A program made the position numbers and the translations under genes. From Atopobium sp. oral taxon 810 str. F0209 (GTDB lineage: Bacteria > Actinomycetota > Coriobacteriia > Coriobacteriales > Atopobiaceae): a stretch of DNA of 58,455 nt. Positions within the stretch are counted from its first letter, which is position 1. The number at the start of each line of letters is the position of its first letter. The DNA lies in assembly GCF_000466405.1 (NCBI RefSeq), contig NZ_KE952953.1, forward strand, positions 1-58,455. The letters run 5' to 3'. Below the pieces are notes generated by a model that ran no database searches, was not told the origin of the DNA, and was given only the letters and a program-made list of their open reading frames with translations. Positions 39,293 to 48,674 of the stretch are shown piece after piece.

Positions 39293-40129
39293 TTACGAGA
39301 GTTTCTTCTTTCGAAATACCAAGTAAGTATTGAGGTTTCCTGTACGTCCGTCAGCTGAAAAACACTCTTGTAGTTCCGCAAGATCAGAAGAAGCATTCAC
39401 AAGTGCGGCAATTTCATCCGCATCAAAATGGTGACAATAGCGCCAGACATGAGGGCACTCCTGCCATCCCAGCAGAAAATCGTTAGACTCTAAATCGGCC
39501 TGCGATATACCCAGTTTGTCCAACGCCTCAGCAGTAGTTTCTTGAGCACGACTAGCAAGCTTGGGACTATTCATAAATTGCCAAAATGATATGGCGCAGG
39601 TGCCACCTGGACGCGTAGCCCCAAGCAACTCTTGAATAAGGGCAATACGAGCGGCTTGGGTGGACACGTGATGCATAAACCCAAAGCAAAGTGACAAATC
39701 AACGGCCGGAAAGGTTGACTCCAGCAGACCAGATGTATTCTTACTTATAAGCTCTTCAACGATATCTATTTGTGTAAATTCAACATCCCAAGGAAGCAAA
39801 AAAGCGCTCTGACGTGCGAGGGACACGCAGTTGTCTACCGCATAGTATGCAACGGAGGTATGTGGTTCTGCCACATCAGCACTTTTCTCAGACGCACAGG
39901 ACATCTTTAATGTATGCGCGAGAAAATCCCCAAAGCGCAAATTGCCACATGCCACATCCAATACGGATAACGTCCGCAAGTCGTAAGAAGATATACCCGC
40001 AAGCTCGACGACTTTTTTCCACCCCTGCCAAGGTGCCTGGCGCGTTTGTGAGAATGCAGCAGCCTGAGCTTGGTAAAACTCTGTATTCAAGCGGTTCAGC
40101 CGTCGCGCAATTTCAATATTCACTGACAC
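39293..40129 (-). CDS. Trm9-like SAM-dependent tRNA methyltransferase
   Basis: Class I SAM methyltransferase of 278 residues. N-terminal FYQAQAAAFSQTRQAPWQGW matches the tR-x-x-P-W segment of Trm9/ABH8-type enzymes. Motif I is VLDVACGNLRFGDF (about 55-68), and post-motif regions include LCFGFMHHVSTQAAR and LLGATRPGGTCAISFWQF, again the Trm9 HHhsT and vRPGG-x-x-W pattern. In eukaryotes Trm9 methylates cm5U34 made by Elongator. Here the gene diverges from elp3 by 125 bp, so a shared wobble-uridine pathway is likely by inference. The start GTG 40129 is tentative. A general methyltransferase is the alternative. Confidence 0.72.
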   Translation of the reverse strand: MSVNIEIARRLNRLNTEFYQAQAAAFSQTRQAPWQGWKKVVELAGISSYDLRTLSVLDVACGNLRFGDFLAHTLKMSCASEKSADVAEPHTSVAYYAVDNCVSLARQSAFLLPWDVEFTQIDIVEELISKNTSGLLESTFPAVDLSLCFGFMHHVSTQAARIALIQELLGATRPGGTCAISFWQFMNSPKLASRAQETTAEALDKLGISQADLESNDFLLGWQECPHVWRYCHHFDADEIAALVNASSDLAELQECFSADGRTGNLNTYLVFRKKKLS

Positions 40130-40254
40130 ATCCCCGCCTCAGAGTAAAAATAAACGACCAAATCCAATGTACGGTACATGCTAGCGCGAAATTCGCGTTT
40201 ATCTTGCCTTGCTTATAATTGCATCTCAAACAGACTGAAGTGCGGGAGAGATGC

Positions 40255-42111
40255 ATGGAAGAACTCTTGCTGGACATACTTGAACACCTACGCGCACTGC
40301 CAGCAGAGCGCTCGGACGATGCGTTAACTCGGTCTGAGTTAGATGCTCTTTGGCGCAAACATAACCGCGGAGTGCGCAACAACGAAAAACACCTCTCGAA
40401 GCGCTTCATCTTGCCTTTTTATCAAAAAATAAAGCAGGAGGATCCTGGTCGCTGGGTGCGCTGGGATATTGATAGCACGCTTGAAAGACGCCTTATTCGT
40501 ACCATCCAGATGAAGCCCCATCGCACGGGATCAGGTGTGGCAACCATCACTGTTATTACGCGCCCCCAAACTTGCTCGAGTAATTGCTTGTACTGCCCCT
40601 GCGACCTGCGTATGCCCAAAAGTTATCTTGCTAACGAGCCTGCTTGCCAACGAGCAGAGCATAACTTTTTTGACCCATATCTGCAGGTTGCCGCTCGTCT
40701 ATGCGCGCTATCGCAAATGGGACATTCTATCGATAAAATCGAGCTCATTGTACTTGGCGGGACATGGAGCGACTATCCGCGCGGTTATCAAATTTGGTTT
40801 ATTCGCGAGCTATTCCGCGCCCTCAACGACTGGCCCATCACCAAAGAAACCTTACGCCAACGCTATGACCGCTACCGTAAGTTGGGTCTTGCGAATAGTC
40901 CTGCTCAACTAAGCCAATTTGTAGAGACGCAGCAACTTTTAGTTAATCAGGGCAAAAAAAGCTTCAACGACGCATTTCATGATTTATATCAAAAAAGCGA
41001 GGCTCATCAAACCGCCTCAAAATATATGAATGCGCATATGGATGAGCTGGTAGCCGAGCAACTACGCAATGAAAGTGCACAACATCGTGTAGTAGGACTT
41101 GTTATCGAAACGCGTCCCGATACCATTGCCCCGCAAAATCTCACGCTATTTCGTCAGATGGGCTGCACGAAGATTCAGATGGGCATACAAAGCACCCGGC
41201 AAGAAATCCTTGATGCCAATCAGCGTTACACCAGCTTGGAACAGATTCGCAGGGCCTTTAACCTTATTAGGCTTTTTGGTTTCAAAATTCATGCGCACCT
41301 GATGGTGAATTTGTTGGGATCTACGCCAGAGTCAGACAAGCAGGACTTTCAAGCATTTGTAAATAGTCCCAGTTTTCTGCCTGACGAAATTAAACTTTAT
41401 CCCTGCGCGCTGGTAGAGGGAACAAAGCTGGTAGAGCATTTCAGGGATGGCTCGTGGCGTCCATATAGTCGAGAAGAGCTTGTTGATGTGCTCGTGAGCG
41501 ATGTGCTTGCAACACCACCTTACATTCGCATTTCTCGTATGATTCGTGACATTAGTGCAGATGACATCCTTGTGGGAAACAAGCATACCAACCTGCGCCA
41601 AATGGTAGAAAACGACATCCGGAGTGCAGGCGCAGCGGGCCTAGTACAAGAAATTCGTTTTAGAGAAATCTCCCTAGACAAGATTAACTTTGCTGAACTA
41701 ACGCTGGATGATTTCGCCTATGAAACTACCGTTTCGAACGAGCACTTTTTGCAATGGGTTACCCCTGAGGGCCGAATCGCAGGTTTTTGCCGTCTATCTC
41801 TTCCTAAATGGGAGCTACTTTGTGACGGGCATGTCAATGTCAGAGCGGATGAGCTGCCCACCGCACCAGGACAGGCAATGATTCGTGAAGTACATGTCTA
41901 TGGTCAAGCAGTACGTCTTGGTCGAGCGGATGCTGCCGCGCAGCACAAAGGCTTGGGTCGCCAGCTAGTTGAACGTGCATGCGACATCGCCCGCAACGCA
42001 GGCTACAGCAGCATCAACGTCATTAGCTCAGTAGGCACCCGCGCCTACTATCGACGCCTCGGTTTTGAGGATGCAGGGCTCTACCAGCACCGAGAGTTTA
42101 CGGCAGATTAG
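40255..42111 (+). CDS. Elp3 family tRNA uridine(34) acetyltransferase-like radical SAM enzyme
   Basis: Elp3 joins a radical SAM domain and a GNAT domain to put carboxymethyl on U34 of tRNA. The 618-residue product from ATG 40255 (GGGAGAG upstream) has the cluster cysteines C107, C111, C114 in TCSSNCLYCP. Hallmarks follow: PKSYLANEPACQRA (about 121-134), LGGTWSDYP, VGLVIETRPD, and GCTKIQMGIQST. The GNAT part is REVHVYGQAVRLG, GLGRQLVERA and SVGTRAYYRRLGFE. The CxxxCxxC spacing is one residue different from what I recall for many homologues. Bacterial Elp3 is known from few lineages. Confidence 0.92.
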   Translation: MEELLLDILEHLRALPAERSDDALTRSELDALWRKHNRGVRNNEKHLSKRFILPFYQKIKQEDPGRWVRWDIDSTLERRLIRTIQMKPHRTGSGVATITVITRPQTCSSNCLYCPCDLRMPKSYLANEPACQRAEHNFFDPYLQVAARLCALSQMGHSIDKIELIVLGGTWSDYPRGYQIWFIRELFRALNDWPITKETLRQRYDRYRKLGLANSPAQLSQFVETQQLLVNQGKKSFNDAFHDLYQKSEAHQTASKYMNAHMDELVAEQLRNESAQHRVVGLVIETRPDTIAPQNLTLFRQMGCTKIQMGIQSTRQEILDANQRYTSLEQIRRAFNLIRLFGFKIHAHLMVNLLGSTPESDKQDFQAFVNSPSFLPDEIKLYPCALVEGTKLVEHFRDGSWRPYSREELVDVLVSDVLATPPYIRISRMIRDISADDILVGNKHTNLRQMVENDIRSAGAAGLVQEIRFREISLDKINFAELTLDDFAYETTVSNEHFLQWVTPEGRIAGFCRLSLPKWELLCDGHVNVRADELPTAPGQAMIREVHVYGQAVRLGRADAAAQHKGLGRQLVERACDIARNAGYSSINVISSVGTRAYYRRLGFEDAGLYQHREFTAD

Positions 42112-42915: not shown

Positions 42916-44028
42916 TTAGTGATCCATTGGCATTACTTTATCGATGGCTGGCGTCTTTGATGTAATGCGATTACGGAACTCCTTGAACACGGGATGCTGC
43001 TTCCAGCAACCAATATCATCAGTTACCTTGAAAGCAATAGTTTGATAAAAAGGCAAAACATAAAGCGGCATTAAACGTGGTTCACGCATATCAAAAGGTA
43101 AGCGTACAGCGCGCGAATCGTCTATCTGAGGATTATTGGTCACAGCAAAACACCGATCAGTGACAGCGTTTGTTGCATAAAAAATCTGATAAAGACGATC
43201 GCTACCATTTTCAAAATCATCTATAAAAAAAACTGTATAGTTAGGAGTTAGTTGTAAATTGGGACCGTGAATGTATTCTTCAGCCTCATAGGCAAAACTC
43301 GGTACCTTAATTGTCTCACCTAACTTGAGAGCACCTTCACAAGCGACACCATAACCCTGAGCAAAACCACAGTGATATGCAACTGTCATAGATGTAAGCA
43401 TCGCCCGATTGCGGTTATAAAAATCCAATGACGCCTCTTGGACAACCTTGTGCCGAGAGGGCACCTCAGCCATCTCGTTGCGGACCTTCTGGTAGACAAC
43501 GCTGTCAATCCTGCCGGAAGCATAAGCTGCTTCTAGTGCAAAAAGCATCAGAAACTCAGCCAAAGTTGCAACACCTTTGGTTACATAACCAATTAGCTCT
43601 GAGCCCACGCCATAATCTACAAGTATGTCTGCGTGGTCTTTAAAATCGCTCTGCAGGTTGCCTGTAAGACCTATTGCGGTATAACCCAGTTCATGTATTT
43701 TATCTAACGCCTTAATAGAATTAGTAGAGCAGCCGCTTTGGGAGATTGTGAATACAAAGTCATCATCCCTCAGGAGATTTTTATAAAACAGAAAGGAGGC
43801 GGGAGGTAAAACCTGCACGTCGACATCCAGATACTTCATCATGAATGGTTTCGCACACTGTGCGGCATTGAAACTCGAGCCGCATGCAATAATCCACACA
43901 TGGTGATAAGAGCCTGCACGCCATGCATCCACTAAAGAACGTGTGAGACAAGTTGAATGCTCTAAATTGAGTGCTAATTGATCTGGCGTCTCTTGTACAT
44001 AGGTAAGCATTGTTGTAGCGTCACTCAT
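42916..44028 (-). CDS. SIS-domain sugar-phosphate deglycase-like protein (GfrE-like)
   Basis: The 370-residue product has two SIS domains. The first shows IIACGSSFNAAQCAKPFMMK (about 47-66) and FTISQSGCSTNSIKAL; the second GVACEGALKLGETIKVPSFAYEAEEYIHGP. This is the GlmS/AgaS-like family that includes deglycases for glucoselysine-6-P and fructoselysine-6-P. Together with the second SIS protein and the PTS genes it recalls the gfr operon of Salmonella. It lies 10 bp after EIIA. Substrate assignment is inference; an aminosugar-phosphate isomerase is possible. Confidence 0.72.
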   Translation of the reverse strand: MSDATTMLTYVQETPDQLALNLEHSTCLTRSLVDAWRAGSYHHVWIIACGSSFNAAQCAKPFMMKYLDVDVQVLPPASFLFYKNLLRDDDFVFTISQSGCSTNSIKALDKIHELGYTAIGLTGNLQSDFKDHADILVDYGVGSELIGYVTKGVATLAEFLMLFALEAAYASGRIDSVVYQKVRNEMAEVPSRHKVVQEASLDFYNRNRAMLTSMTVAYHCGFAQGYGVACEGALKLGETIKVPSFAYEAEEYIHGPNLQLTPNYTVFFIDDFENGSDRLYQIFYATNAVTDRCFAVTNNPQIDDSRAVRLPFDMREPRLMPLYVLPFYQTIAFKVTDDIGCWKQHPVFKEFRNRITSKTPAIDKVMPMDH

Positions 44029-44037
44029 AATAATCTC

Positions 44038-44466
44038 TCAAATCCCATCTACTTCAGATTCATCCTCAACATCTGTCAGCTTGAATTCCACTAATGATCG
44101 ATGCCCTGCGTCTAATATTGTTTCGATGAAATTATCTGCACGCACATGATCATCACGTTCCAAAACTGCAGTAAGCAATACCGCCACACTTGTACCCGCA
44201 ATAACATGGACGTCATCGCGATTTGCAGCAAGAGTGGCAGCAATTTTAAATGGAGATCCACCAATAATATCCGTGCAGACTATGATGTTTTCACAACCCG
44301 CCAATCTGTCAAAAGCAGCAATTATTTTTTCAGCAAGGCGATCAGTTGAATCACCATCCTCAAAGTCAACGAGTTCAAACGCCTCCTGCTCACCTGCGAG
44401 TAGGCGCACCGCAGACCCCATGCCTGTAGCAAAGTGCCCGTGTCCCGTTATGAGAATTCCTAGCAT
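44038..44466 (-). CDS. PTS mannose-family EIIA component (second PTS)
   Basis: The 142-residue product has the phospho-acceptor His9 in LITGHGHFATGMGSAV and the VCTDIIGGSPFKIAAT segment of mannose-class EIIA. It starts directly at the end of the kinase-HAD gene (TAGATG) and precedes the SIS gene. It would pass phosphate from HPr to the EIIB encoded at 48750-49223. Confidence 0.93.
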   Translation of the reverse strand: MLGILITGHGHFATGMGSAVRLLAGEQEAFELVDFEDGDSTDRLAEKIIAAFDRLAGCENIIVCTDIIGGSPFKIAATLAANRDDVHVIAGTSVAVLLTAVLERDDHVRADNFIETILDAGHRSLVEFKLTDVEDESEVDGI

Positions 44467-45966
44467 CTAAATCCCCAATCTATCTGTCAGATATCGCTTA
44501 ATCTGCTTATGATTGTCAAAGGCGAAATTTGCCGCCGTAAGGTCTATATTGACGCCAGGCGTATGTAACGCTAATACCTCAGCACCGGCACGTAACCCAG
44601 CTTCGATTCCATACTGCGAATCCTCAATTACGACGGTTCGACTGGGATCTGCTCCTAACTCACTAATCACATACGTATAAATGGCTGGATTCGGTTTACT
44701 TTCTTCAAAGCATTCCCCTGATGCAACCACATCAAAGGCACCTTCAAGTCCAAGCTCACTGATAACTTTTTTAAGGTCGCGCATGGGACTTGATGAAGCA
44801 ATTCCCACCCTAATTCCCTGCTCCTTCAGCCAGCAAATGAGCTTGGCGGCGTTAGGTATCTGAATATCTGCAAAATTAATTGTGTGGCTCATGAAGTATT
44901 CTGCGATAACACACTGCGCATGAGGAACATCCATACCGAGATAGGATCCTATTATCTTTGCTTGGTGCTCATCTGAAGCCCCACGAAGCGCCGATACGTC
45001 AGAGGCGCTCATTTCTTTCCCGTATTTCCGAACAAGTTGTTGGCAAAGTTCTGCATAGAGTGGCTCTGTATCTACAATGACACCATCATTGTCAAATATA
45101 ACGGCATCTGGACGCGAGAAGTCAGTACCATGCCCGAATGCTCCACGCTCTTGACACATTCGTTCAGCGTGAGTAGCAGCATCTATAAGAGCTTGGGTAC
45201 AGGCTTCCTGATCGGGAAGTTTCCCTTTATATTTCCAGCCACGCTTAACCAAGCCGACGGTCAGAGCTGTAATAAAAGAGTCACCAGCACCTAAGGTATC
45301 TAAAGGTTGCTTATCTGCTTCAATACCAAAAGCTCTCAAAGCACCATCGCTAAAAAGTATGGGAGCCTTTGGACCACGAGTCACGAGAACGGGGCATGTA
45401 AGATCTAAGGCAGCATAAAAGTCGGCTGCCTCGTTCACGGTAATACCCTCACAGCTAAATTGAGCCAAGTCAATATAAGGAGCCACACGTTTGAGATAAT
45501 CAGATGTCCAATATTTTTCTTTCTCACCAAAGTCAAAAGAAAGAATATTTCTATAGCCCGCAAGGCGTGGAAGGTCATCTTCGACATGTGCGTTACAGCT
45601 CGTAAGGATTACATCTGCATCGCAAACAGCTTTAAGTTGGTTCTCATTGAGGGCGAAATAGTCCGGCCAATTTTTTCCTAATTCATTACGAAGCCAACGA
45701 TGACTTGCTCCGCAAGGCTCGCTAATGCATCGTTTGGTGGTACCACCAGCAACTATCCGACAAGCAGAAAAATCAACCCGTTCAGCTCGAAGCGCAGCCA
45801 TAATGGCACGGCCCCATTTATCATCAGCAATAGAACCCAAGTACACACCTTCACAGCCCAAACGTGTTGCCGAAACTGCAACATTTACAGCGTTGCCGCC
45901 TGGGTAACCGTAATCCGTTCCACCCCAGAGGTCGAAGACGTTATCTCCCAAACCTACAATTTTCAT
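44467..45966 (-). CDS. PfkB sugar kinase - HAD phosphatase fusion (FrlD-like kinase domain)
   Basis: One 499-residue frame carries two enzymes. Residues 1-275 are a PfkB kinase close to fructoselysine kinase FrlD: start MKIVGLGDNVFD, PGGNAVNVAV (22-31) and catalytic DTLGAGDSF (223-231). Residues 287-499 are a HAD phosphatase/beta-phosphoglucomutase-like unit: nucleophile and acid D292 and D294 in FDNDGVIVDTE, Ser391 region ASSS, K424 in ESKPNP, acidic ED (448-449). All motifs look intact. It overlaps the FrlB-like gene by TGATG and abuts EIIA. A kinase and a phosphatase in one chain, inside a PTS operon that should already phosphorylate the sugar, is unusual. Confidence 0.88.
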   Translation of the reverse strand: MKIVGLGDNVFDLWGGTDYGYPGGNAVNVAVSATRLGCEGVYLGSIADDKWGRAIMAALRAERVDFSACRIVAGGTTKRCISEPCGASHRWLRNELGKNWPDYFALNENQLKAVCDADVILTSCNAHVEDDLPRLAGYRNILSFDFGEKEKYWTSDYLKRVAPYIDLAQFSCEGITVNEAADFYAALDLTCPVLVTRGPKAPILFSDGALRAFGIEADKQPLDTLGAGDSFITALTVGLVKRGWKYKGKLPDQEACTQALIDAATHAERMCQERGAFGHGTDFSRPDAVIFDNDGVIVDTEPLYAELCQQLVRKYGKEMSASDVSALRGASDEHQAKIIGSYLGMDVPHAQCVIAEYFMSHTINFADIQIPNAAKLICWLKEQGIRVGIASSSPMRDLKKVISELGLEGAFDVVASGECFEESKPNPAIYTYVISELGADPSRTVVIEDSQYGIEAGLRAGAEVLALHTPGVNIDLTAANFAFDNHKQIKRYLTDRLGI

Positions 45967-46973
45967 CAGTAGACCTCTTTACGGTAGTAACGACGCGTAT
46001 CCAACGAGTGCTGACAGACCACCTCAAGATTCTTCGAAATCCGTTGAAGAGCTGCGTTTATAAGCACGGGCCCCAATAGAACACGCCAACGCTCAAGCAC
46101 ACTTGGAAGCGCAAAATCAGCAGCATCAATGATTGTCAATTTGTCTGTATGGTTTGCGGCAAAACGAGCTACTCGTAAATCGAGCTCACGTGTAGGTCCT
46201 TCTCCAATTAGTAATGTGAGAGGCACGCTAGGACCAAGCAGTTCAAGAGTGCCATGGAAAAATTCCGCACTTGTTACTGATTTAGTACGAATCCAAAGGC
46301 TCTCTTCAAGCACACACATAGCATAGGAGTAGCAAACTGGCCACAGATCACCCGAAGCTACCCAAATATGGTAGGGCTCTGCACAATACGCATGTGCATA
46401 AGCCCGAGCACGTTCATCAAACTGCTTGCGAACTGCATTAAGAGCTTCGCCCAGCATTTCGAGAGCTGATGCAAAATTTTCATAACCTTTGAACTCGCTG
46501 CGGTTAGCAAGAATCCTGCCAACAAAGAAGTAAAAGGGAAATTCAAGCGGACGGCCATCACCAAAATGGAAGGCATAATCGGAAAGATTAGCTAAAGGCG
46601 AGGCGTCGGGTCCCGTGGACGAAAAAATCTTCGCTCCTCTTTTATGTAACCACTGAGCTGCTTTTACCGTCTCTATTGTGTCACCCGATTTGCTGGCCAT
46701 AAGCACCAAAGTACCAGGGCCCACCATATTGCAACCACTAGTAATTAGATCAGCCGCCTGCACACTATACACTGGCAACACACTCATATGATCAATCATG
46801 GATCCAAAGGGATCTATGGTAGCCTGCGAGCCACCGACTGAACAGATAAGTACGTTCTGAATGCCACAACCACAAGCTTTATCGGCCAACTTTTCAATAT
46901 GAGTACGCTGAGAGTAGATGTGTTCTGCTCTATCTAGAAAATCCTTCTCGTCAAAATTTGCCATCTGAACCAT
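45966..46973 (-). CDS. SIS-domain deglycase, FrlB/GfrF-like
   Basis: Predicted fructoselysine-6-phosphate deglycase releasing an amino acid and glucose-6-P. From ATG 46973 (AAGGGGG 9 bp upstream; a 29-residue longer frame exists) the product is 335 residues. SIS 1 has CSVGGSQATIDPFGS and MASKSGDTIETVKAAQ; SIS 2 ends with AEFFHGTLELLGPSVPLTLLIG and the C-terminal RRYYRKEVY, closely like E. coli FrlB (FRHGPLEIVEPGVP, RRYYGGLVEY, as recalled). The downstream kinase gene overlaps it. The exact Amadori substrate is not determined. Confidence 0.8.
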   Translation of the reverse strand: MVQMANFDEKDFLDRAEHIYSQRTHIEKLADKACGCGIQNVLICSVGGSQATIDPFGSMIDHMSVLPVYSVQAADLITSGCNMVGPGTLVLMASKSGDTIETVKAAQWLHKRGAKIFSSTGPDASPLANLSDYAFHFGDGRPLEFPFYFFVGRILANRSEFKGYENFASALEMLGEALNAVRKQFDERARAYAHAYCAEPYHIWVASGDLWPVCYSYAMCVLEESLWIRTKSVTSAEFFHGTLELLGPSVPLTLLIGEGPTRELDLRVARFAANHTDKLTIIDAADFALPSVLERWRVLLGPVLINAALQRISKNLEVVCQHSLDTRRYYRKEVY

Positions 46974-47089
46974 GCGGTGAAGCCCCCTTCTTATTGCATT
47001 ATTCAGAAAATGACATGTTTTATAAACTGGGCGATGAGTTATCGCAAGCTCACCGCCCATTTATAATCAGACGCGGGGTATAAATCCTT

Positions 47090-47890
47090 CTACATCCATC
47101 CAAGCAGTGCCATAAGGATGCCAAAGACAATAATGCCTAGAATTACCACTAGGACGTTAGCATCTTTACGGAAGAGCCAGTAAGTCAGAAAAACAAAGCC
47201 TAGGGGCAACATGTTGGGAAGGATCCCATCAAAAACGCTCTGAACTGTCGTGCCACCGATACCGAAAACAAGAGTATCGCTAAAGGCCAAACTGACATAA
47301 GAAGGGATAAGGCCGCCCACAACCATCATGCCCAAGATGCCAGCCGCTTCGGTAAGATACTTTGTGCTCTCGCCAATATTCTCGACAAACTTTTGACCAA
47401 CGGTATAGCCCAGCTCAGCAAACCACATGCGGGAAATTGCCGCAACAAACCAAATTCCCATGTAAAGCAAAGGTCCTAATACAGAGCCTTCTTGTGCCAA
47501 AGAGCAACAGATGGCTGCAGAAATTGGCAAAAGAGTGAACCAAAAGATAGCATCTCCTAGACCTGCAAAAGGCCCGAAGAGACCATTGCGAATACCAGCA
47601 ATAAGATTGCGATCCTCGCGACGTTCTTCCATTGAAATAATGAGGCCCATGAGAAAAGCACCCATATGCATTTCGGTGTTCATAAACTGCATGTTATAAG
47701 TCATGAACTCGCTAAGATCTTTCTCAGAGTCCCCATAGAGCTTCTGAAATGTAGGTAACATCGACATGGTAAAACCAGGCGCCTGCATACGCTCAAAAGA
47801 GAAACCGCCCTGCATGCCAATGGATAGCAAGCCCATGCGATGAATATCTTTCTTACTAAGTTTACGCTCTGTATTCTCATTAGATGCCAT
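47090..47890 (-). CDS. PTS mannose-family EIID component
   Basis: Integral membrane subunit that with EIIC forms the sugar channel. The 266-residue product from ATG 47890 begins MASNENTERKLSKKDIHRMG and has the EIID hallmarks SIGMQGGFSFERMQAPGF, GLFGPFAGLGDAIFWFTLLP and C-terminal helices ending LLGWM. A longer frame to 48007 overlaps EIIC deeply and is not used. It overlaps EIIC by 11 bp. It is a useful intact reference for the truncated EIID at 8401-9167. Confidence 0.93.
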   Translation of the reverse strand: MASNENTERKLSKKDIHRMGLLSIGMQGGFSFERMQAPGFTMSMLPTFQKLYGDSEKDLSEFMTYNMQFMNTEMHMGAFLMGLIISMEERREDRNLIAGIRNGLFGPFAGLGDAIFWFTLLPISAAICCSLAQEGSVLGPLLYMGIWFVAAISRMWFAELGYTVGQKFVENIGESTKYLTEAAGILGMMVVGGLIPSYVSLAFSDTLVFGIGGTTVQSVFDGILPNMLPLGFVFLTYWLFRKDANVLVVILGIIVFGILMALLGWM

Positions 47891-48674
47891 CAATCTCACC
47901 ACCCTCATTTGCTGCCTCAATGGAAACTTTTGCCTCATCAATCTTCTTTTCATGCGCATAATTGATGTAAGCAAGGGCAGCAGCGGTAATAGCAACCGGC
48001 AAAACATTGGGTAACGCGAGGAATGTTGCCATCACAAAACCTAAGAACAGATAAGCCAAGTTTTCTTTCTTGAGCATAACCATAAGCAACATACCAAGAC
48101 CAACGGCAGGAAGTAGGCCGCCTGCAATCTCAAATCCATGAACCAGCCAAGTGGGAAAAGTATTCACAAAAGATTGGATTGGACCTTGTAGTGCAAAAGA
48201 GCAAAGGAAGGCAACTAGAGCCACTACAGCAGCCTTGAAGATTACTGCAAACCACACCAAGTTAAAGAGCCCCTTAGCATCTGCCTTAGCAGCATACTCA
48301 TCGCATTTATGAGCAATTACTACATAGCCAGTATTAAAACCAATACCAACCCACTGAGCTAGAAGGGCAAACGGGAGCGACAAGCCAACCGCAGCCTCTG
48401 GACTTTGACCCGTAGTATGAGCAAGTACCACAGTCATAATGCCTGCCATCAGAGGATCGGGTGGAACCGTTCCACCAACCGTCAGTAAACCAAGGTAGGA
48501 CAACTCGGTAACTGCACCACACTTAACACCAAGCGTAACGTCACCAAGTGCAAGACCGGTCAGGAAGCCTACAACCATGGGGCGAAACCAATAGAAGGCC
48601 TCGAAGGTCTGATCCATTGCGCAGATAAACGCAACGAGCAGAATCAACAGGCCTTGCAATAGGGTAATTTCCAT
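47880..48674 (-). CDS. PTS mannose/sorbose-family EIIC component
   Basis: The 264-residue membrane protein has the EIIC-sorbose pattern: N-terminal LLQGLLILLVAFICAMDQ, GLALGDVTLGVKCGAVTELSYLGL, GGTVPPDP and several further helices. GGAAAGG precedes the ATG. It is between EIIB and EIID in the usual order. With EIID it transports the sugar while EIIB phosphorylates it. Confidence 0.94.
   Translation of the reverse strand: MEITLLQGLLILLVAFICAMDQTFEAFYWFRPMVVGFLTGLALGDVTLGVKCGAVTELSYLGLLTVGGTVPPDPLMAGIMTVVLAHTTGQSPEAAVGLSLPFALLAQWVGIGFNTGYVVIAHKCDEYAAKADAKGLFNLVWFAVIFKAAVVALVAFLCSFALQGPIQSFVNTFPTWLVHGFEIAGGLLPAVGLGMLLMVMLKKENLAYLFLGFVMATFLALPNVLPVAITAAALAYINYAHEKKIDEAKVSIEAANEGGEIDGI

Follow-up and report, generated by a model that had tools for sequence, protein, structure and literature searches.

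Two genes lie head to head in a 58,455-nucleotide stretch of DNA from Atopobium sp. oral taxon 810 str. F0209 (contig NZ_KE952953.1, positions 1 to 58,455; henceforth the window), one encoding an Elp3 protein and the other a methyltransferase that resembles Trm9. The methyltransferase gene (39293..40129, minus strand) starts with a GTG at 40129, ends with a stop at 39293 and is predicted to encode a 278-residue Trm9-like class I methyltransferase that uses S-adenosylmethionine (SAM). The Elp3 gene (40255..42111, plus strand) runs from an ATG at 40255 to a stop at 42111 and encodes 618 residues with a radical SAM and a GNAT domain. Both open reading frames (ORFs) are intact. For Elp3 we prefer the ATG at 40255, which is preceded by GGGAGAG, a ribosome site of the GGGAG type, to the TTG at 40219 called by the ORF program. 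The two genes are separated by exactly 125 bp (40130..40254), as a preliminary description of this DNA had stated, and divergent promoters are expected in this shared region. A promoter and terminator scan of the gap did no better than shuffled sequence, and we therefore make no regulatory claim. Among the genomes compared, the nearest relative is Olegusella massiliensis, whose methyltransferase is 84% identical.

The window indeed encodes a full bacterial Elp3, as had been read from the letters alone. The protein matches the TIGR01211 profile over its full length (392 bits, curated cut-off 350), and a PDB search matches it to solved bacterial, archaeal and eukaryotic Elp3 structures with E values down to 6e-74, the value obtained for the bacterial DmcElp3 of Dehalococcoides (5l7j). 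Its AlphaFold2 (AF2) model has a predicted local distance difference test score (pLDDT) of 89.9. The Fe-S cysteines C107, C111 and C114 (CX3CX2C; 40573..40596, plus strand) are invariant in 73/73 sequences, and the GNAT/KAT domain (41707..42108, plus strand; Acetyltransf_1 match at residues 491-604) has kept its residues E545, H547 and Y598. Elp3 K161, K344, H547 and Y598 correspond to MinElp3 K150, K266, H463 and Y517, which were tested experimentally (PMC6367351), and are invariant wherever present in the 73 sequences; the position of MinElp3 Q461 holds a glutamate in the window protein, as in DmcElp3. The zinc-knuckle cysteines common to bacterial and archaeal Elp3s (PMC6367351) have been lost, as judged from the alignment. 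Alignment and AF2 model further delineate a Coriobacteriia-specific helical insertion after the first half of the radical SAM domain (residues 193-268; 40831..41058, plus strand). Its helices are predicted with pLDDT >90, and its length is 76 residues in the window, mostly about 70-115 across Coriobacteriia and 9 in other Actinomycetota. Our guess is that this insertion might dock the tRNA or the methyltransferase.

The linkage suspected at this locus proved near-perfect across the class. In 248 Coriobacteriia genomes, the methyltransferase occurs in 138/140 genomes with Elp3 versus 0/108 genomes without it, a co-occurrence that rules out chance adjacency. For 137 pairs both genes could be located, and 131 of these lie no more than 6 kb apart: 123 are divergent (84 of them within 1 kb), seven codirectional and one convergent. 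Four of the remaining pairs are on different contigs and two are far apart (78 and 242 kb). Co-occurrence therefore holds even where adjacency has been lost, and the link is not only positional. The same arrangement dominates the named loci, which are the best 80 by score and nearly all named as Coriobacteriia (76/80 divergent). In the two Elp3 genomes without the methyltransferase (G096 and G199), Elp3 stands near a contig end and no match was found elsewhere in the genome, while in G039 Elp3 is truncated and all that is left of the methyltransferase is a short fragment next to it. Genus g4 comprises members with both genes and one member with neither, and the two genes were thus probably lost together. 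The distance matrices of the two genes also agree (r 0.64, with 0/2000 permutations as high), to which we give little weight because the same is expected of any two genes inherited vertically.

Some variations on the arrangement were seen along the way. In Collinsella two ORFs separate the pair; they encode a helix-turn-helix protein and a DUF4097 protein and are not tRNA-modification genes. In one Coriobacteriia metagenome-assembled genome (MAG) a radical SAM protein of 313 residues lies between methyltransferase and Elp3 (L072 4626-5567). In some genomes the methyltransferase is present once more, as a copy or a fragment, at a distance from elp3 (L039 in G058, L096, L101 and G230:C1:2492994-2493476). 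One MAG named Propionibacteriaceae (L071) holds the pair with Coriobacteriia-like sequences, and is probably a mislabelled or contaminated record.

Beyond Coriobacteriia, a search of Actinomycetota with the methyltransferase profile revealed three clear homologs (E about 1e-22 to 1e-24), and all three genomes carry Elp3. A wider search for Elp3 added three genomes from other Actinomycetota families, each of which has the homolog, so that it is present in 6/6 genomes with Elp3 from Actinomycetota families outside the class. Four of the six genomes have the genes as divergent neighbours; in the remaining two, Elp3 lies at a contig end. These homologs are less diverged than those of Coriobacteriia. 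The only archaeal Elp3 reached, on a Natrinema plasmid, has no match to the methyltransferase profile nearby; a methyltransferase 6.5 kb from it was considered as a Trm9 and rejected, since profile scoring did not find it Trm9-like.

The relationship to Trm9 emerges from the family rather than from the window protein taken singly. We aligned 42 Coriobacteriia relatives that are 33-83% identical to the window methyltransferase, among which the invariant columns include D58, G62, R65, D99, H153, H154, R161, W183, W222, R230, H233, N267 and Y269. Searched against the PDB, the Coriobacteriia profile has Trm9 of Yarrowia lipolytica (5cm2) as its top match (E 2.4e-8; next sequence 3.5e-4). The profile of the Actinomycetota homologs from outside the class gives the same top match at E 3e-20, and one such homolog on its own does so at E 1e-17, over residues 26-218 and including the RYYH segment. 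In the reverse direction, the yeast Trm9 chain finds the elp3-linked member as best match in 6/6 of the other Actinomycetota genomes (E 1e-14 to 1e-18; next best 9e-6). In Coriobacteriia, the family member is the best but a weak match in six genomes and is not the best in two. We also scored the E. coli methyltransferases BioC, CmoA, CmoB, CmoM, UbiE, UbiG and Tam as controls. Trm9 scores 36.6 bits with the Coriobacteriia profile and 72.3 bits with that of the other homologs, versus 21.5 and 35.2 for the best controls and 9.1 and 19.2 for CmoM, which ranks below CmoA/UbiG and UbiE. In the tree, Trm9 falls inside the clade of Actinomycetota homologs from outside Coriobacteriia with support of 98/97.

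Residues of known importance point the same way. In yeast Trm9, the mutations R29A, H115A, R241A, Y243A and N271A impair tRNA binding and catalysis (PMC5372719), and four of these five residues (R29, H115, R241 and N271) are conserved in the methyltransferase family. The motifs FSQTRQAPW, FMHHVST and TRPGG..SFW noted in the preliminary description are all present in the window protein. R30 in the FSQTR motif (residues 25-30; 40040..40057, minus strand), aligned to NTRYKPWP of Trm9, corresponds to R29 and is invariant in 73/73 homologs, as is H153 in the HH motif (residues 153-154; 39668..39673, minus strand), which aligns to VIHHFST and corresponds to H115. The RYCH motif (residues 230-233; 39431..39442, minus strand) aligns to RYYH of Trm9 via the other homologs, such that R230 corresponds to R241; R230 and H233 are both invariant in 73/73. 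N267 (39329..39331, minus strand) is N in 68/68 sequences reaching the position. We take it to be the expected counterpart of N271, a mapping that draws on the C-terminus of the yeast protein, since the match to 5cm2 ends before this point. Thus, the resemblance to Trm9 holds by profile, by reciprocal best match through the less-diverged homologs and by four of the five residues examined by mutation.

These results bear on whether the methyltransferase might be an unrelated enzyme acting on a small molecule or protein, and merely a conserved neighbour of elp3. Class I methyltransferases do resemble each other, and neither Pfam nor NCBIfam has a family whose curated cut-off the window protein reaches; NCBIfam has no model for it. 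Nevertheless, its presence and absence track Elp3 in Coriobacteriia and again in other families, including the two widely separated pairs, and the profile searches, reverse search and control scoring all argue for kinship with Trm9. We therefore regard an unrelated neighbour as very unlikely. The tie between the window methyltransferase and Trm9 consists of profile matches, the synteny with Elp3 that the family shares and common residues; a direct pairwise comparison does not reveal it. In strict terms the protein is a divergent relative of Trm9 and does not belong to the Trm9-Trm112 holoenzyme of eukaryotes.

Knowing the distribution of the pair, we turn to the wider equipment for modifying the wobble uridine (U34). 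MnmG, which is needed for the usual bacterial route to 5-substituted methyluridines at this position (xm5U34), was found in 1/248 Coriobacteriia, a genome (G071, same class) with neither Elp3 nor the methyltransferase, and in 0/6 of the other Elp3-bearing Actinomycetota genomes. MnmA, which makes 2-thiouridine (s2U34), was present in 30/30 genomes tested. In two lineages, Senegalimassilia and one more of the Eggerthellaceae, the two genes flank a NifS-type cysteine desulfurase (L053 3227-4420 and L082 4718-5911), and a further genome has a desulfurase-MnmA pair some 5 kb away from Elp3; these placements suggest, with modest support, that the pathway is connected with tRNA 2-thiolation. Trm112 was sought in the window's genome with the Pfam model PF03966 and nothing reached the cut-off, in keeping with the absence first supposed: the best match has 19 bits (cut-off 22) and lies inside a 784-residue ORF. 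The same search, run as a control, finds Trm112 in H. volcanii and S. acidocaldarius.

We propose, with a probability of roughly three in four, that the pair constitutes a bacterial wobble-uridine pathway in which Elp3 makes 5-carboxymethyluridine (cm5U34) and the methyltransferase turns this into the esterified 5-methoxycarbonylmethyl form (mcm5U34, or mcm5s2U34 with the thio group) without Trm112. With acetyl-CoA and its radical SAM cluster, Elp3 would place a carboxymethyl group on C5 of U34, and the Trm9-like enzyme would then methyl-esterify the carboxylate with SAM. In tRNAs thiolated by MnmA the product would be mcm5s2U34, and given that MnmA is present, this may be the end product in some tRNAs. 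The pathway would run without Trm112 or the scaffold subunits of Elongator, in bacteria without MnmG. It is the substrate, the product and the independence of Trm112 that we infer here.

Several results weigh against this proposal. The window methyltransferase alone, searched against the PDB as a single sequence, returned chance matches only and did not find Trm9, and the yeast Trm9 query had no match in the window's genome at E 0.1. The tree groups Coriobacteriia, the other homologs and Trm9 weakly (57/81), with long branches. C232 stands at the position of Trm9 Y243, so that the window protein has a Cys there, as do 69/73 homologs; Y243 is probably not family-defining, because the other homologs vary between Y, F and C at this position. 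Such U34 side chains are dispensable in Coriobacteriia, since 108 genomes do without Elp3 and the methyltransferase, and all but one of these also without MnmG. Finally, purified yeast Trm9 has no activity unless Trm112 is present (PMC6382703), and the window methyltransferase would therefore have to be self-sufficient.

The predicted structure is a further point on this side. The AF2 model of the methyltransferase (pLDDT 93.8) has a class I SAM methyltransferase fold, for which Foldseek placed Trm9 (5cm2_Z) only at rank 3 (E 1.6e-9, template modelling score 0.72 on the target), while VIA-align found the closest fold in METTL6, a tRNA 3-methylcytidine (m3C32) enzyme, with the best Z score of 20.0 (root-mean-square deviation 3.1, 226 aligned residues, 15% identity). 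Trm9 (5cm2) was not among the 50 matches listed by VIA-align. Such a match could indicate a base methyltransferase of the anticodon loop like METTL6, linked to Elp3 through action on the same stem-loop. However, many other class I folds follow METTL6 closely, so that differences in Z among them are small, and the Z of Trm9 is lowered because its deposited chain is incomplete, with 184 modelled residues. METTL6 chains are also absent from the sequence matches of both profiles, in which Trm9 comes first, and we know of no strict dependency between Elp3 and METTL6. With so many class I folds close behind METTL6, fold similarity does not decide the function, and a METTL6-like activity seems to us highly improbable. 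Overall, those checks proposed in the preliminary description that we ran favour its reading, with Trm9 first by family profile and near-perfect linkage to elp3, although the window protein by itself does not recover Trm9.

A closer competitor to mcm5U34 formation has the pair acting on U34, with the methyltransferase making another Elp3-dependent nucleoside, by modifying another group of the cm5U-tRNA or a further-processed side chain. Strict coupling to Elp3 constrains the pathway and not the exact atom methylated, and the long Coriobacteriia branch and the Cys at the Y243 position fit such a change. On the other hand, E. coli CmoM illustrates that methyl-esterification of a carboxylate at U34 is within the reach of bacteria, and the residues for tRNA binding and catalysis that the family shares with Trm9 (R29, H115, R241 and N271) have been proposed to position the cm5U34 substrate (PMC5372719). 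We consider a different nucleoside unlikely and retain mcm5(s2)U34 as the preferred product. For a fuller version of the proposal we see the scales as level: a complete Trm112-independent Elp3 to Trm9 pathway to mcm5(s2)U34 in MnmG-less bacteria, built to a design specific to bacteria, with a single-subunit Trm9-like enzyme and, in Coriobacteriia, a helical insertion gained by Elp3 and able to take on the tRNA- or partner-docking roles of Elongator subunits or Trm112.

In eukaryotes, mcm5U34 is made by Elp3, within Elongator, and Trm9-Trm112 (ABH8 in animals). The bacterial pair shares with this route the Fe-S and KAT residues of Elp3, the FSxTR, HH, RY-H and C-terminal N of the methyltransferase, Trm9 as the closest solved structure by sequence profile and the presence of a 2-thiolase. 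It differs in that Elp3 is encoded alone at this locus, no Trm112 exceeds the cut-off in the window's genome, thiolation is expected to proceed by MnmA and not by Urm1/Ncs6, a Cys replaces Y243, the genes are adjacent and divergent, and Elp3 bears the 76-residue helical insert. Judged from these sequences, the pair is probably a bacterial version of the known pathway and the methyltransferase probably works like Trm9. Archaea offer another parallel: Elp3-Trm9 pairs were proposed there in 2008, with the genes clustered in S. solfataricus (PMC2584109), and mcm5U34 has been reported in Haloferax volcanii (PMC7663514). By description, Haloferax volcanii and Sulfolobus have Elp3 without other Elongator subunits together with a Trm9 homolog, but thiolation is attributed to Tuc1 and Trm112 is found in H. 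volcanii and S. acidocaldarius.

Among bacterial systems, CmoM resembles the proposed enzyme in using SAM to methyl-esterify a carboxylate attached to C5 of U34, yet its substrate is uridine 5-oxyacetic acid (cmo5U) from CmoA/CmoB, not a product of Elp3, and it scores far below Trm9 with both profiles. The MnmE-MnmG pathway to xm5U34 (with MnmC/MnmL/MnmM) acts at the same position with the same general role in decoding codons ending in A or G, but MnmG is absent from nearly all (247/248) of the Coriobacteriia and all six other Elp3-bearing genomes. DmcElp3 has been presented as a rare case of Elp3 in a bacterium, one for which derived U34 nucleosides have no direct evidence (PMC6367351, PMC7663514), and such evidence is said to be lacking for derivatives of cm5U34 (xcm5U34) in Elp3-bearing bacteria at large (PMC7663514). 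Bacterial homologs of Trm112-dependent methyltransferases could not be detected in an earlier study (PMC5372719), and Trm9-type mcm5U modification has been called exclusive to eukaryotes (PMC6382703). In the open-access full-text literature searched, we found no earlier report of a bacterial Elp3-Trm9-like pair. The newness that the preliminary description saw in the pairing is qualified in one respect: clustering of Elp3 with Trm9 and mcm5U had already been proposed or reported in archaea (PMC2584109, PMC5372719, PMC7663514).

Elsewhere in the window, a 499-residue ORF (44467-45966, minus strand) appears by eye to encode a PfkB-type sugar kinase fused to a HAD/beta-phosphoglucomutase-like domain. 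It lies in a run with phosphotransferase system-like and SIS-domain genes (42916-48674), possibly an operon for the use of fructosamine or a similar amino sugar, again by eye only.

The methyl-ester decoration on the anticodon of certain tRNAs was thought absent from bacteria, yet the two enzymes that build it in eukaryotes have likely counterparts that stand almost always side by side in Elp3-bearing Coriobacteriia. Carriers of the proposed pathway make up over half of the sampled Coriobacteriia and include several other Actinomycetota families. The pair is found in culturable gut and oral bacteria, namely Collinsella aerofaciens, Slackia, Lancefieldella, Senegalimassilia and Olegusella, and with a downstream enzyme beside Elp3 in such bacteria, what bacterial Elp3 makes is therefore directly testable by tRNA mass spectrometry. 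If the proposal is true, the pair would serve as a simple model, made up of two proteins, for a pathway with links to human disease, and it suggests how bacteria without MnmE/MnmG may decorate U34.

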